NCBI GenBank assembly: GCA_030037775.1
Contig: JASHQB010000338.1
Coordinates: 1 to 64,000, forward strand
DNA: 64,000 bases
DNA from: Candidatus Acidiferrales bacterium
GTDB lineage: Bacteria > Acidobacteriota > Terriglobia > Acidiferrales > UBA7541
Direction: 5' to 3'
Shown: piece after piece, positions 18,336-23,135 of the stretch
How the letters are laid out: each line of letters begins with the position of its first letter
How positions within the stretch are numbered: the first letter of the stretch is position 1
Notes under the pieces: model-generated
What the model was told of the DNA's origin: nothing
Seen by the model: only the letters and a program-made list of their open reading frames with translations
Databases searched by the model: none
Program-made: the position numbers and the translations under genes

Positions 18336-20498
18336 ATGAAGATTCGCGAGAAGGCGATGTGCTGCGGATTTGCGCTCTTGATACTCGGCTTGGCTGTGAC
18401 GCTGGCGCCCTTCACAGCGTTGGCGCAGGATTCATCCGATCAGGCGATGGCAGCCCCAAGCCAGCAAGCGCCTGCGCCGCGCAGCAAAGATGGCAAGAGA
18501 CTTTTTGGCACGCGGGAAGCCCTGGAGGTTGCCCGCGTCAGCTCTCCGCGAATCTCTCCGGACGGCTCGACGGTCGCTTATCTCGTCTCCTCGCTGAAAA
18601 TGGAAAAGGATGACCCTGGAAAATCCGTGACGAATCTGTGGATCGTTCCCGCTGCCGGCCCGGCCAGCGCTGCCCGGCAATATACCCGCGGCGATAAGAG
18701 CATCTCCGATATCGCATGGTCTCCTGACGGAAAAATCATTGCCTTCGCGATGGCCGGTGAAGATGAAAAGAACGGCCCGCAGGTCTGGTTCATGTACGCA
18801 GACGGCGGCGAGCCGTGGCAGGTCACCAAACACAAATCCGGCGTGCGCGGCTTCGAGTTTTCTCCCGACGGCAAAATGCTTCTTTTGGTCGCCACCGCGG
18901 CTCCGGACCCGGATGCGGAAAAGCGCGACAAGCTTCATGACGACGCCGTCGTTGTCGACCATGATTTCAAGCTGGCGCAGCTGTGGACCTGGAACATTGC
19001 CACTAGCGACGAGAAAGAAATCACCAAGGGCGACTTCACCGTCAGCGACCCGCGTTGGTCTCCGGATGGCTCACACATCACTTTCACCACCAATCCCACG
19101 CCGCTGCTCGACGATATTAGTTTGCAGACGGCTTGGATACTCGATGTCTCCACCGGTGAAGAGCGCAAGGTTGTGGATACGACCGGCTATACGCACACCG
19201 CGCGATGGTCGCCCGACGGCAAATGGATCGCCTATCTCAGTGATCGCGGAATGATCGAGCAGGTGAATCTGTCCGTGGTCAGTGCCGACGGCGGCGAGCC
19301 GCGGAAACTGACCGCCTCGTTCGAATTGAACGCCGGCACGCCCGTTTGGGCGCCTGATGGCAAGACGATTTATTTCAGCACAGATACGCGCGAGTCCATT
19401 GATGTCTTTGCAGCCGATGTTGCCGCCGGCACGGTCCGTCAAGTGACCGACAAGCCCGCGATGATCAGCCTCGACGAAATCAGCGCAAACGGCCAAACCG
19501 CCGTCGGCACATGGACCGATCCATCCCATCCCGCCGAAGTCTTCCATTCCGATCTCAGCTTTGATTCCATCTCGCCCATCACCAACCAGAATGCCTGGCT
19601 CGCCGAGTATGCCCTGGGCGACACCGAAGTGGTTCGCTGGAAGAGCAGCAAAGACGGAATCGAAATTGACGGTATCCTCACCAAGCCAGTCGATTTCGAT
19701 CCTTCGCGCAAATATCCTTTCCTGCTCAATCCCCACGGCGGCCCCACCGGCGCATCGCCGCTCGCTTTCAATGCACAAGAGCAGATCATGGCTGCCAATG
19801 GCTACCTGATTCTCGAGCCAAACTTCCGCGGCTCCTCAGGGCGCGGCGAAAAATTCGCCATGGCAAACCAGAATGACTGGGGCGGCGGAGATTACAAAGA
19901 TGACATGAGCGGCGTTCAGGCCATCGTGGACAAGGGTTGGGCGGATCCCAGTCGCATGGGGGCGTTCGGCTGGTCCTACGGCGGCTTCATGACTTTCTGG
20001 ATCGATACGCAAACCGACCGCTTCAAGGCCATTTCACCGGGCGCTGGCTTGCCGGATCTTTATTCCATGTATTCCCAAACCGACATTCATCGCTACCTCA
20101 CCAACTTCTTCGACATGAAAGCGCCCTGGGATAATTTTCAGGAATACTGGGATCATTCGCCGATGAAATACATCGAGAACGTCAAGACGCCAACGATGAT
20201 TCTCCACGGCATCGCCGACACGCGCGTGCCGATTCCTCAAGCGGAGGAATTCTATGAGGCGTTGAAAGAGCGGCATGTGCCCGTGGAATTCGTCAAATAT
20301 CCTCGCGAAAACCACGGCTTCATCGAGCCGCGCCACATTCAAGACCGCTGGCAGCGCTACTTGGTTTTCTTCGGTAAGTACTTGGACAATCCTCCGCTCA
20401 CCGAGCCAAAGGACGTGCTCGACCGTATGGCAAAAGATTTGCCGCAAGGAAACGCCTCTTCGGAAACGCAGAGTGGCGCCGTAGGATATCAACCCTAA
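18336..20498 (+). CDS. S9 family prolyl-oligopeptidase-type peptidase (DPP IV/acylaminoacyl type)
   Basis: This 720-residue exported serine peptidase has a signal peptide (CGFALLILGLAVTLAPFTALAQ), a beta-propeller with repeated SPDG motifs (ISPDGSTVAYLVS, WSPDGKIIAFA, FSPDGKMLLLV, WSPDGSHITFT, WSPDGKWIAYLS) and a C-terminal alpha/beta-hydrolase. The catalytic triad is visible: Ser in GWSYGGFMT, Asp in HGIADTRVP and His in NHGF. I start at ATG 18336 with GGGAGGAG upstream; the track ORF runs into unrelated sequence overlapping tadA. It probably degrades short peptides in the periplasm. It ends about 85 bases before tRNA-Ser. Confidence 0.95.
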   Translation: MKIREKAMCCGFALLILGLAVTLAPFTALAQDSSDQAMAAPSQQAPAPRSKDGKRLFGTREALEVARVSSPRISPDGSTVAYLVSSLKMEKDDPGKSVTNLWIVPAAGPASAARQYTRGDKSISDIAWSPDGKIIAFAMAGEDEKNGPQVWFMYADGGEPWQVTKHKSGVRGFEFSPDGKMLLLVATAAPDPDAEKRDKLHDDAVVVDHDFKLAQLWTWNIATSDEKEITKGDFTVSDPRWSPDGSHITFTTNPTPLLDDISLQTAWILDVSTGEERKVVDTTGYTHTARWSPDGKWIAYLSDRGMIEQVNLSVVSADGGEPRKLTASFELNAGTPVWAPDGKTIYFSTDTRESIDVFAADVAAGTVRQVTDKPAMISLDEISANGQTAVGTWTDPSHPAEVFHSDLSFDSISPITNQNAWLAEYALGDTEVVRWKSSKDGIEIDGILTKPVDFDPSRKYPFLLNPHGGPTGASPLAFNAQEQIMAANGYLILEPNFRGSSGRGEKFAMANQNDWGGGDYKDDMSGVQAIVDKGWADPSRMGAFGWSYGGFMTFWIDTQTDRFKAISPGAGLPDLYSMYSQTDIHRYLTNFFDMKAPWDNFQEYWDHSPMKYIENVKTPTMILHGIADTRVPIPQAEEFYEALKERHVPVEFVKYPRENHGFIEPRHIQDRWQRYLVFFGKYLDNPPLTEPKDVLDRMAKDLPQGNASSETQSGAVGYQP

Positions 20499-20584
20499 GG
20501 AAGCGTCCTAACTGCAGGCGGCCGAGCGGTCAGCGTTGTCCCTTCGCCGCCGCTCTGGTAATCTTTTTCCTACGCAACTCACGC

Positions 20585-20677
20585 GGAGAGGTGTCTGAGC
20601 GGTTGAAAGAGCCCGCCTCGAAAGCGGGTAGCCTGGCAAAACCGGGCTCGTGGGTTCAAATCCCACCCTCTCCGCCA
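20585..20677 (+). tRNA. tRNA-Ser (anticodon CGA)
   Basis: The acceptor stem GGAGAGG pairs with CCTCTCC, followed by discriminator G and an encoded CCA. The anticodon stem-loop CCCGC-CTCGAAA-GCGGG has anticodon CGA, which reads UCG serine codons. The long variable arm and the T-arm GTGGG-TTCAAAT-CCCAC are typical of class II tRNA-Ser. Its 3' end is copied twice downstream. Confidence 0.97.
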
Positions 20678-20910
20678 TTGAGACGGAATTCGGAGCCTAC
20701 CCAGTCAGTCTCTTTGCCAGGCACCACAGCCTGGAACTTTCTTAACTGGCACGCAGCGCGTGCGGCGGGCTCTCAAATCCCACCCTCTCCGCCATTGAGC
20801 CAGAGTTTGGAGCTCTTGCCCGGCAAGCCGTTTGCCCGGCACCGTAGCCGGGAACTCTCTTAACTGGCACGCAGCGCGTGCGGCGGGCTCTCAAATCCCA
20901 CCCCCTCCGC
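20656..20910 (+). repeat. tandem repeat of the tRNA-Ser 3' end, unit 117-118 bases
   Basis: The T-arm/acceptor sequence TCAAATCCCACCCTCTCC (inside the tRNA at 20656) recurs at 20773 and, as TCAAATCCCACCCCCTCC, at 20891. The 117 and 118 base spacers share the block TTAACTGGCACGCAGCGCGTGCGGCGGGCTC exactly. Each spacer also holds a hairpin: CCAGGC/GCCTGG in the first and CCCGGC/GCCGGG in the second, where one pair changed on both sides. The copies lack the 5' tRNA half, so they are not tRNA genes. The third copy is partial and runs up to the APC permease stop. Confidence 0.9.
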
Positions 20911-20924
20911 TCCGCGAAGATCCA

Positions 20925-22790
20925 TCAAGACTTCAGGTACCAGGGCGCGCTGATCACTACGATCCTCTGCGTACGCTTGAGCAGCAGTGCCGCTTTCAAC
21001 CACGTCGCGCGCTGGTTGTGTAGGAAATATTCATACCAGTGCTTTTGCACCAGTTCCGGAATGATTACCGCGATTTGCCGCTTAGGGTTTCGTTTCTCAA
21101 GGTCGAACACATAATCCACAATCGGATTGATCACAAAGCGAAACGGCGACTCCAGCACGGTCATGTGCGGCACGGGCAAGCCTGCTTTTTTCATCGGCCT
21201 TTCCACGTATTCGACCCACTTCTTGTACACGTTTTCTTCGTCTTCACCGCAATCCACGTGCAGCACGTGCAGCTCGGAAGACAGATTGATGGCGAACTGC
21301 AATCCTTCGCGGCTGATTTTATTCCACGAGCTCGCTGGCAGCACTACGATGGGCGCCCCCACCTCAGTCAAATCGATGGGATGCGGATCGGCAATTTCTT
21401 TTTGAACTCTCGTGTAGTGCCGTCGAATCGAATACATCAAAGCGATCATCAACGGAATCAGCACCGTTACGATCCAAGCGCCTTCGACAAACTTCGTGAC
21501 CGTAACCACGACTACGGTGCCCCCGGTCATCGCCGCTCCAAAACCATTGATGAACATCGCCGCCCGCGACCTCTTCTTGCCGGCGCGCCTCCAATGCATC
21601 ACCATGCCGGCTTGAGAGAGCGTAAATGCGAGAAACGCTCCGACGGCGAACAACGGGATCAGACGGTCCGTTATGCCTCCGAACGCAATCAGCAAAATGC
21701 CGCAAAGCAGCGCGAGAACCGTGATGCCTAAGGTGTAGACCAGCCGCCTTCCTTGTATCGCCATGGGATACGGAAGATAACCATCCTGCGCCAGCAGCCT
21801 GCAGAGCCTCGGAAAATCCGCGAAGGCCGTGTTCGCGGAAAATGCCAACACCAGCAGAATCGATGCGATAGTGACGTAGTAGAAGACATTCCTGCCCACG
21901 ACCGCGGCGGTGAGTTGCGAAAGCACGCTCTGGTAGCCTGAACCCGGATCCGTCGCGCCGACATGATATGCCCGGCAGAGCACGGCGATTCCGGCCAGTA
22001 AAATCACCAACAACCCGATGATGATGCTCAGCGTGCGCTGTGCTGTTTGCACCACGGGTTCACGAAACGCGCGGACGCCATTGCTGACCGCCTCCACGCC
22101 GGTCATCGCCGTGCATCCGCTCGAAAATGCTTTCAAGATGAGCCATACGCTAACCGCGGCCGTCGCCCCTCCCAAAGAAGGCGGAGCCGTCACCGCCGTT
22201 GGATGGCCCCCTGCAGCGATGGCCTTGAAAATTCCTATCGCTAGTGTGATCAGAAGCGTTCCGGTAAAAAGGTACGTCGGAATCATGAAGATCGTTCCTG
22301 TTTCACGTACCCCGCGCAAGTTAATCACCGTGATCAGAACCAGAATGGCGACGCACAACACGACGGTATGTGGCTGAAGAGAAGGAACCGCGGAAATCAG
22401 CGCGCCCACTCCTGCCGAGATTCCGACCGCCGCGGTCAGCACGTAATCGATCATCAGTGCCGCAGCGGCCAACAGTCCAGCGGCGGGCCCCAGATTTGTC
22501 CCTGCGACCGTGTAGGATCCGCCGCCGCCAGGATAGGCATCGATCGTCTGACGATAGGAAAAGAAAACGATCAATAGAAGAATGATGATGCTAATCGTGA
22601 TGGGAACAATGTAGGCGACGCTCAACGCCCCCAACGAAATCAACAGTGCCAGCGCTGCTTCAGGTCCGTATGCCGCAGAGCTCAGTGCATCCAATCCGAA
22701 GACGGGAATGCCGCCCAGCGCCCCCAGTTTCTCGCCGCGTTCTTCTGAGGAACGCAGTGGCCGCCCGAACAAGAAATCTATGATCGACAT
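20925..22790 (-). CDS. APC superfamily permease (amino acid or cation transporter)
   Basis: This 621-residue protein has about twelve membrane segments in the first ~450 residues (DALSSAAYGPEAALALLISLGAL, AYPGGGGSYTVAGTNLGPAAGLLAAAALMIDYVLTAAVGISAG, and others) and a ~170-residue cytoplasmic C-terminal domain (PIVVLPASSWNKISREGLQFAINLSSELHVLHVD) that looks USP-like. This architecture occurs in APC permeases often annotated as amino-acid or potassium transporters; the substrate cannot be read. The ATG at 22790 has GGAG upstream and is preferred over the track's TTG at 22805. It is divergent from the pilin operon. Confidence 0.88.
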   Translation of the reverse strand: MSIIDFLFGRPLRSSEERGEKLGALGGIPVFGLDALSSAAYGPEAALALLISLGALSVAYIVPITISIIILLLIVFFSYRQTIDAYPGGGGSYTVAGTNLGPAAGLLAAAALMIDYVLTAAVGISAGVGALISAVPSLQPHTVVLCVAILVLITVINLRGVRETGTIFMIPTYLFTGTLLITLAIGIFKAIAAGGHPTAVTAPPSLGGATAAVSVWLILKAFSSGCTAMTGVEAVSNGVRAFREPVVQTAQRTLSIIIGLLVILLAGIAVLCRAYHVGATDPGSGYQSVLSQLTAAVVGRNVFYYVTIASILLVLAFSANTAFADFPRLCRLLAQDGYLPYPMAIQGRRLVYTLGITVLALLCGILLIAFGGITDRLIPLFAVGAFLAFTLSQAGMVMHWRRAGKKRSRAAMFINGFGAAMTGGTVVVVTVTKFVEGAWIVTVLIPLMIALMYSIRRHYTRVQKEIADPHPIDLTEVGAPIVVLPASSWNKISREGLQFAINLSSELHVLHVDCGEDEENVYKKWVEYVERPMKKAGLPVPHMTVLESPFRFVINPIVDYVFDLEKRNPKRQIAVIIPELVQKHWYEYFLHNQRATWLKAALLLKRTQRIVVISAPWYLKS

Positions 22791-23135
22791 CAGTTTTCTC
22801 CGCAATATCGAAGGCCATGCATTATGAGCTAAGGTCCAATCTCATGCATGGACAAAACCGCGAATTGCGCGGCCATAGTCCTCGAACCACGGCCGCGCGC
22901 CTCCGTGGCGCTTATCCAGGCGCGCGCCCGCCAATTATGGTCTGGGTGGGAGTTTTGGTCACTATTTAACCCCGGCCCGCTTCTCACTCGTCATCCACAA
23001 CGCATCGACACTAGACTAACTGTCGCTACATCAATAGGATACGGGCTTTGGTGCGATGGCCGTCCTCATGCTCTTACACTTGTGGTTGCTAGCTTCACCT
23101 GCCAATTGCCGGTGGTTAAGGGAGTGGCGTTGAAA
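22791..23135. other. regulatory gap between permease and pilin operon
   Basis: This 345-base gap separates the divergent permease and the pilin operon. The track ORF extends the first pilin gene into it (from 22848), but that extension has no signal or family match. It contains the inverted repeats at 22815-22872 listed separately. I see no clear sigma-70 or sigma-54 promoter. Confidence 0.5.
22815..22872. promoter_or_regulatory. two inverted repeats, possible operator
   Basis: CCATGCAT (22815) and ATGCATGG (22844) form a perfect 8-bp inverted repeat, extended by GAG/CTC after a three-base offset. It is followed by a second hairpin CCGCG-AATTG-CGCGG (22858-22872). They lie 25 bases upstream of the permease start and 260 bases before the pilin start. 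An operator is an inference from position and symmetry only. Confidence 0.35.

Follow-up and report, generated by a model that had tools for sequence, protein, structure and literature searches.

Tandem units ending in a tRNA 3' tail behind tRNA-Ser(CGA) of an uncultured acidobacterium

The locus and its two tail-ending units

The window, the whole 64,000-nucleotide stretch of an uncultured acidobacterium that was analysed (contig JASHQB010000338.1), carries an intact tRNA-Ser(CGA) gene with encoded CCA at 20585-20677 on the forward strand (ARAGORN; Rfam tRNA, 57.6 bits). The gene is flanked upstream by an S9 prolyl oligopeptidase-family gene (18336-20498, forward strand; Pfam PF00326) and downstream by a convergent amino-acid permease gene (20925-22805, reverse strand; Pfam PF13520), the latter showing 82% identity to 'Candidatus Acidiferrales bacterium' isolate JOPF102 (JASHRN010000027.1). 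Ahead of the tRNA gene, TTGTCC (20536-20541) and TAATCT (20559-20564), separated by a 17-nt spacer, were read from the sequence as a candidate promoter (20536-20564, forward strand). A consensus promoter scan did not flag this element; the same -10 and spacing precede tRNA-Ser(CGA) in three congeners, and the element is likely the promoter of the gene.

Two units, each ending in a copy of the tRNA 3' tail, lie between the tRNA and permease genes. Unit 1 (117 nt; 20678-20794, forward strand) consists of a spacer and the middle tail TCAAATCCCACCCTCTCCGCCA (20773-20794), which matches the tRNA tail at 22 of 22 positions, and unit 2 (118 nt; 20795-20912, forward strand) consists of a diverged spacer and the decayed last tail TCAAATCCCACCCCCTCCGCTC (20891-20912), which matches at 19 of 22 and ends 12 bp from the permease stop codon. 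The two tails are offset by +117 and +235 from the tail of tRNA-Ser(CGA), in agreement with the initial annotation, which had placed two further T-arm/acceptor copies at 117-118-base steps. The exact block that it had reported in both spacers also exists, but at a length of 46 bases (20740-20785; the longest exact block common to the units), of which approximately 33 precede the tail, rather than 31. When the units were aligned, 21 of 118 columns differed, 17 in the 5' half and four in the 3' half (p = 0.003).

Both tail copies lack the GTGGGT of the 5' strand of the T-arm, and the last tail lacks CCA. ARAGORN and Rfam gave a single tRNA and no complete cloverleaf in the units, and functional tRNA duplicates were ruled out on account of the missing T-arm strand and cloverleaf. 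No protein frame analogous to tpr was kept in both units, and a protein product was rejected, since each of the frames either covers part of the tRNA gene or is interrupted by the 118-base step.

In the alignment, the tail region of tRNA-Ser(CGA) is GGGCTCGTGGGTTCAAATCCCACCCTCTCCGCCATTGAG, compared with GGGCTC------TCAAATCCCACCCCCTCCGCTCCGCG for the last tail and GGGCTC------TCAAATCCCACCCTCTCCGCCATTGAG for the middle one. The latter (20773-20794, forward strand) is a chimera: its left side, GCGGCGGGCTC------TCAAATCCCACCC, is that of the last tail, including the same 6-base gap, and its right side, TCTCCGCCATTGAG, is the sequence behind the tRNA, so that it resembles the tRNA tail (CTCTCCGCCATTGAG) on that side. 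The exchange can thus be placed within a shared stretch of 13 bases. Judged from this alignment, the chimeric tail records an unequal crossover in which a tRNA tail and a unit tail paired out of register and exchanged within TCAAATCCCACCC. A single crossover between tails accounts for both the doubling of the unit and the perfect 22-of-22 match, which therefore needs no selection, and the chimera implies that the ancestor carried one unit with a decayed tail, as the congener G004 shows.

Hairpins and folding of the units

Hairpin 1 of unit 1 (CCAGGC-ACCACA-GCCTGG; 20717-20734, forward strand) is followed by a weak T-rich stretch and has its counterpart in hairpin 1 of unit 2 (CCCGGC-ACCGTA-GCCGGG; 20835-20852, forward strand), in which one pair has changed on both sides, A-T in unit 1 against C-G in unit 2. 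A 6-bp hairpin kept in both spacers with this one pair swapped, as first described, is thus confirmed. Hairpin 2 of unit 1 (GCACGC-AGC-GCGTGC; 20749-20763, forward strand) is identical in unit 2. The nominal chance of a compensated pair with an intact hairpin is approximately 0.005-0.012, calculated for random placement of five local substitutions and for a hairpin chosen afterwards. In unit 2, TTGCCCGGCA is present twice, 16 bases apart (window 20815-20845), and unit 1 differs there. Local templated copying via this doubled sequence could lie behind part of the change in hairpin 1.

In an alignment of four units including related sequences, the hairpins paired in 85.4% of cells, compared to 78.5% after shuffling (11/500), and two pairs were changed on both sides (61/500). 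The consensus covariation term was unfavourable, and several of the pairs retained in relatives are G-U. These results hint, weakly at most, that the hairpin structure may have been kept in relatives. Unit 1 folded somewhat better than its shuffles (z -2.3), whereas neither unit 2 (z -0.7) nor the unit of G004 (z +0.8) did so, and the T-arm cannot form in any of these three units because the 5' strand of its stem is missing. Shuffle tests of hairpin strength over the last 50 nt before the tail were mixed (p from 0.01 to 0.55), and the idea of a strong hairpin always standing directly before the tail was rejected on these tests.

The unit in its own genome and in relatives

The unit was not found elsewhere in its own genome, where the other matches were short and the best were tRNA tails, and no tail repeats were detected in the 1.5-kb flanks of the 30 other tRNA genes examined of 45. 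The tail is thus not repeated at those genes, as the initial annotation had proposed to check, and a dispersed tRNA-derived repeat family was rejected because the unit occupies a single locus. The tRNA-derived nature of the repeats, the other part of that suggestion, holds at the window locus and in relatives.

Among the congeners, the unit is found at the same tRNA in G004 and G003 and is absent from G001. G004 carries one degraded unit 116 bp downstream (+116), with a tail matching at 17 of 22 positions and a spacer similar to that of the window unit (p about 0.002-0.008). G003 keeps the order tadA, S9 peptidase, tRNA and permease, and its homologous unit (p < 0.001 for the spacer) is inverted and lies between the S9 gene and the tRNA. 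The tail of the G003 unit matches that genome's own tRNA variant GGCCTC and was therefore converted or copied from that tRNA. At this locus (L031, 4129-4440), the upstream inverted unit creates inverted tail repeats around the promoter and the tRNA. In G005, a tail copy (21/22) at +6220 from the tRNA bounds a segment with transporter- and glycosyltransferase-like frames (L113).

Three units at +98, +197 and +296 lie behind the tRNA-Ser gene of G014, which belongs to another genus of the same family. Their similarity to the tRNA begins at the anticodon arm (p <= 0.001), and ahead of the T-arm they contain an inserted hairpin. The G014 and window arrays are alike in lying behind the same tRNA gene, in having tandem copies of its tail and in the hairpin before the tail; however, from the anticodon arm onward the G014 spacer can still be recognised as derived from the tRNA, and its direct similarity to the window spacer is not significant (p = 0.11). 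The spacers of G004 and G014 are similar (p about 0.005), and outside its tail window unit 1 shows no significant similarity to the tRNA (p = 0.85). We thus infer through the relatives that the whole window spacer may be derived from the tRNA. The window units were not accepted as partial tRNA copies with a variable-arm insert of the G014 kind, AGCCTGG being well placed and not significant alone.

A strict pattern of two tails 80-110 bases apart was found in four of 399 genomes of the class, in all cases at serine tRNAs, and the reversed pattern used as a control gave no matches. A looser tail copy lies at +68 in G008, and in G064 (L116) the layout recurs at another serine tRNA, tRNA-Ser(GGA), which is followed by an exact 20-base copy of its tail at +91.

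Origin and possible roles of the array

Considering these results, we propose that the array probably represents a partial tRNA-Ser copy that was doubled by recombination between tails and has since been decaying and drifting, which is the best and least demanding account of the locus. A partial copy of tRNA-Ser(CGA) would have adjoined the gene before the split of the genus. In the window lineage, the real tRNA tail and that of the copy would then have recombined out of register and doubled the unit, after which the spacers would have drifted while the tail-proximal part was kept alike by later exchange or mild constraint. In favour of this account are the repeats themselves, the chimera seen in the middle tail, the occurrence of single units beside the same tRNA in congeners, the loss of the T-arm, the partial-tRNA units of G014 and the confinement of the unit to one locus of its genome. 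Against it stand the nominally unlikely compensated pair, the above-shuffled pairing of the hairpins in the four-unit alignment, the non-significant likeness of unit 1 to the tRNA outside the tail, and the much closer agreement of the units in their 3' halves than in their 5' halves, which could reflect constraint. The doubling alone does not explain this uneven divergence; any one of three processes would, namely subsequent exchange between the two copies, a doubling that involved diverged alleles, or constraint near the tail. The initial annotation had suggested selection on a structure and not a decaying duplication. Its exclusion of a decaying duplication found no support: the T-arm is destroyed in both units, decay is evident in the last tail, unequal crossing-over accounts for the perfect middle tail, and hairpin 1 is no more than weakly preserved in two relatives of the same genus. 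The first copy may have arisen at a recombinase attachment site or by slippage.

The tails may alternatively be att remnants, in which case the unit would be one of the short scars, bounded by att sites, that integrases targeting the tRNA 3' end had left behind. Such an origin is compatible with later doubling by recombination, and we regard it as a possible though doubtful reading. Tyrosine recombinase genes are found immediately behind tRNA-Ser(CGA) in two relatives, G031 and G034 (L012 and L021), which gives this gene the look of an integration site within the family. The direct tail copy 6.2 kb downstream in G005 also speaks for the att reading. The window shares with the attL/attR duplications of tyrosine-recombinase elements a direct tail repeat that reaches the tRNA 3' end, at a tRNA adjoined in relatives by recombinase genes. 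However, it differs from them in its tandem multiplication and its spacings of approximately 100 bp, which would require heavy deletion of any element, and the G005 segment contains no recognised integrase. No element is present at the window locus, no integrase was found between or beside the repeats, where the flanks are the S9 peptidase and permease genes, and none of the own-genome PF00589 matches listed was on the window contig. Attachment-site remnants, one of the first suggestions for this locus, are thus conceivable as an origin, given the recombinase genes in two relatives, but neither an integrase nor an island accompanies them in the window. A phage or viral origin was rejected: in searches of 50,697 phage records and of IMG/VR, at the sensitivities applied, nothing other than the tRNA was matched. 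A role in termination was also considered, in which hairpin 1 would act as an intrinsic terminator for the tRNA and would have been copied along with the unit, the changed pair then reflecting selection on termination. A scan flagged CCAGGCACCACAGCCTGG followed by AACTTTCTTA, and G001, which has no unit, shows a clear terminator-like hairpin and T-run approximately 30 nt behind the same tRNA. However, 0.7 such sites are expected in shuffled sequences, the run of T residues is poor and poorer still in copy 2 (CTCTCTTA), and there is no convincing equivalent in G003 or G004, making this role improbable.

In Escherichia coli, the RNA rtT has been reported to be freed from tRNA transcripts and to be connected with the stringent response (as cited in PMC4986893). 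The nearest known counterpart of the window array, the E. coli tyrT/tyrV array (rtT/RttR; RF00391), likewise consists of tandem units that follow a tRNA gene and each close with a tRNA 3' tail including CCA, and has a hairpin-rich spacer. Our own reading of the tyrV locus gave three additional tails spaced by 178 bases (+178, +356 and +534), with rttR and tpr annotated. In contrast, the window has a serine instead of a tyrosine tRNA, a unit of 117 instead of 178 bp, two units, an unrelated sequence, and no tpr-like frame kept in both units. The RF00391 covariance model gave no match to the window region even at E <= 5, whereas the E. coli locus, used as a control, gave four matches of 133-138 bits. 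The window array is therefore like the rtT array in layout and not a member of it, because the layout is common to both and the sequence family is not. By analogy, the units might be co-transcribed with the tRNA and, once excised as the tRNA matures, yield a small structured RNA. The shared layout, the weakness of the terminator-like site between tRNA and units, the hairpins with one compensated pair and the folding of unit 1 point in this direction. However, neither unit 2 nor the G004 unit folds better than shuffles, the RtT model is unmatched, and the unit has been lost, inverted or moved in congeners, so that this scenario appears unlikely. It is still harder to credit that the serine-tRNA genes in this group of acidobacteria would carry their own rtT-like system, with tail units that share the tRNA transcript and give rise to small hairpin RNAs, having evolved separately from the E. 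coli tyrosine array.

The decaying, doubled partial copy thus remains our preferred account. The feature is real and probably without strong function, though some function of the units is possible, and transcription through them from the tRNA promoter is plausible; the order of events, this co-transcription and the absence of a strong function are all inferred. The locus provides a readable case of how arrays like E. coli tyrT can start, with a partial tRNA copy followed by unequal crossing-over between tails, and its relatives allow the stages to be compared, since they variously carry one degraded unit, an inverted one or further arrays. If any of the units is transcribed and processed, tRNA-tail RNAs would arise repeatedly in bacteria.
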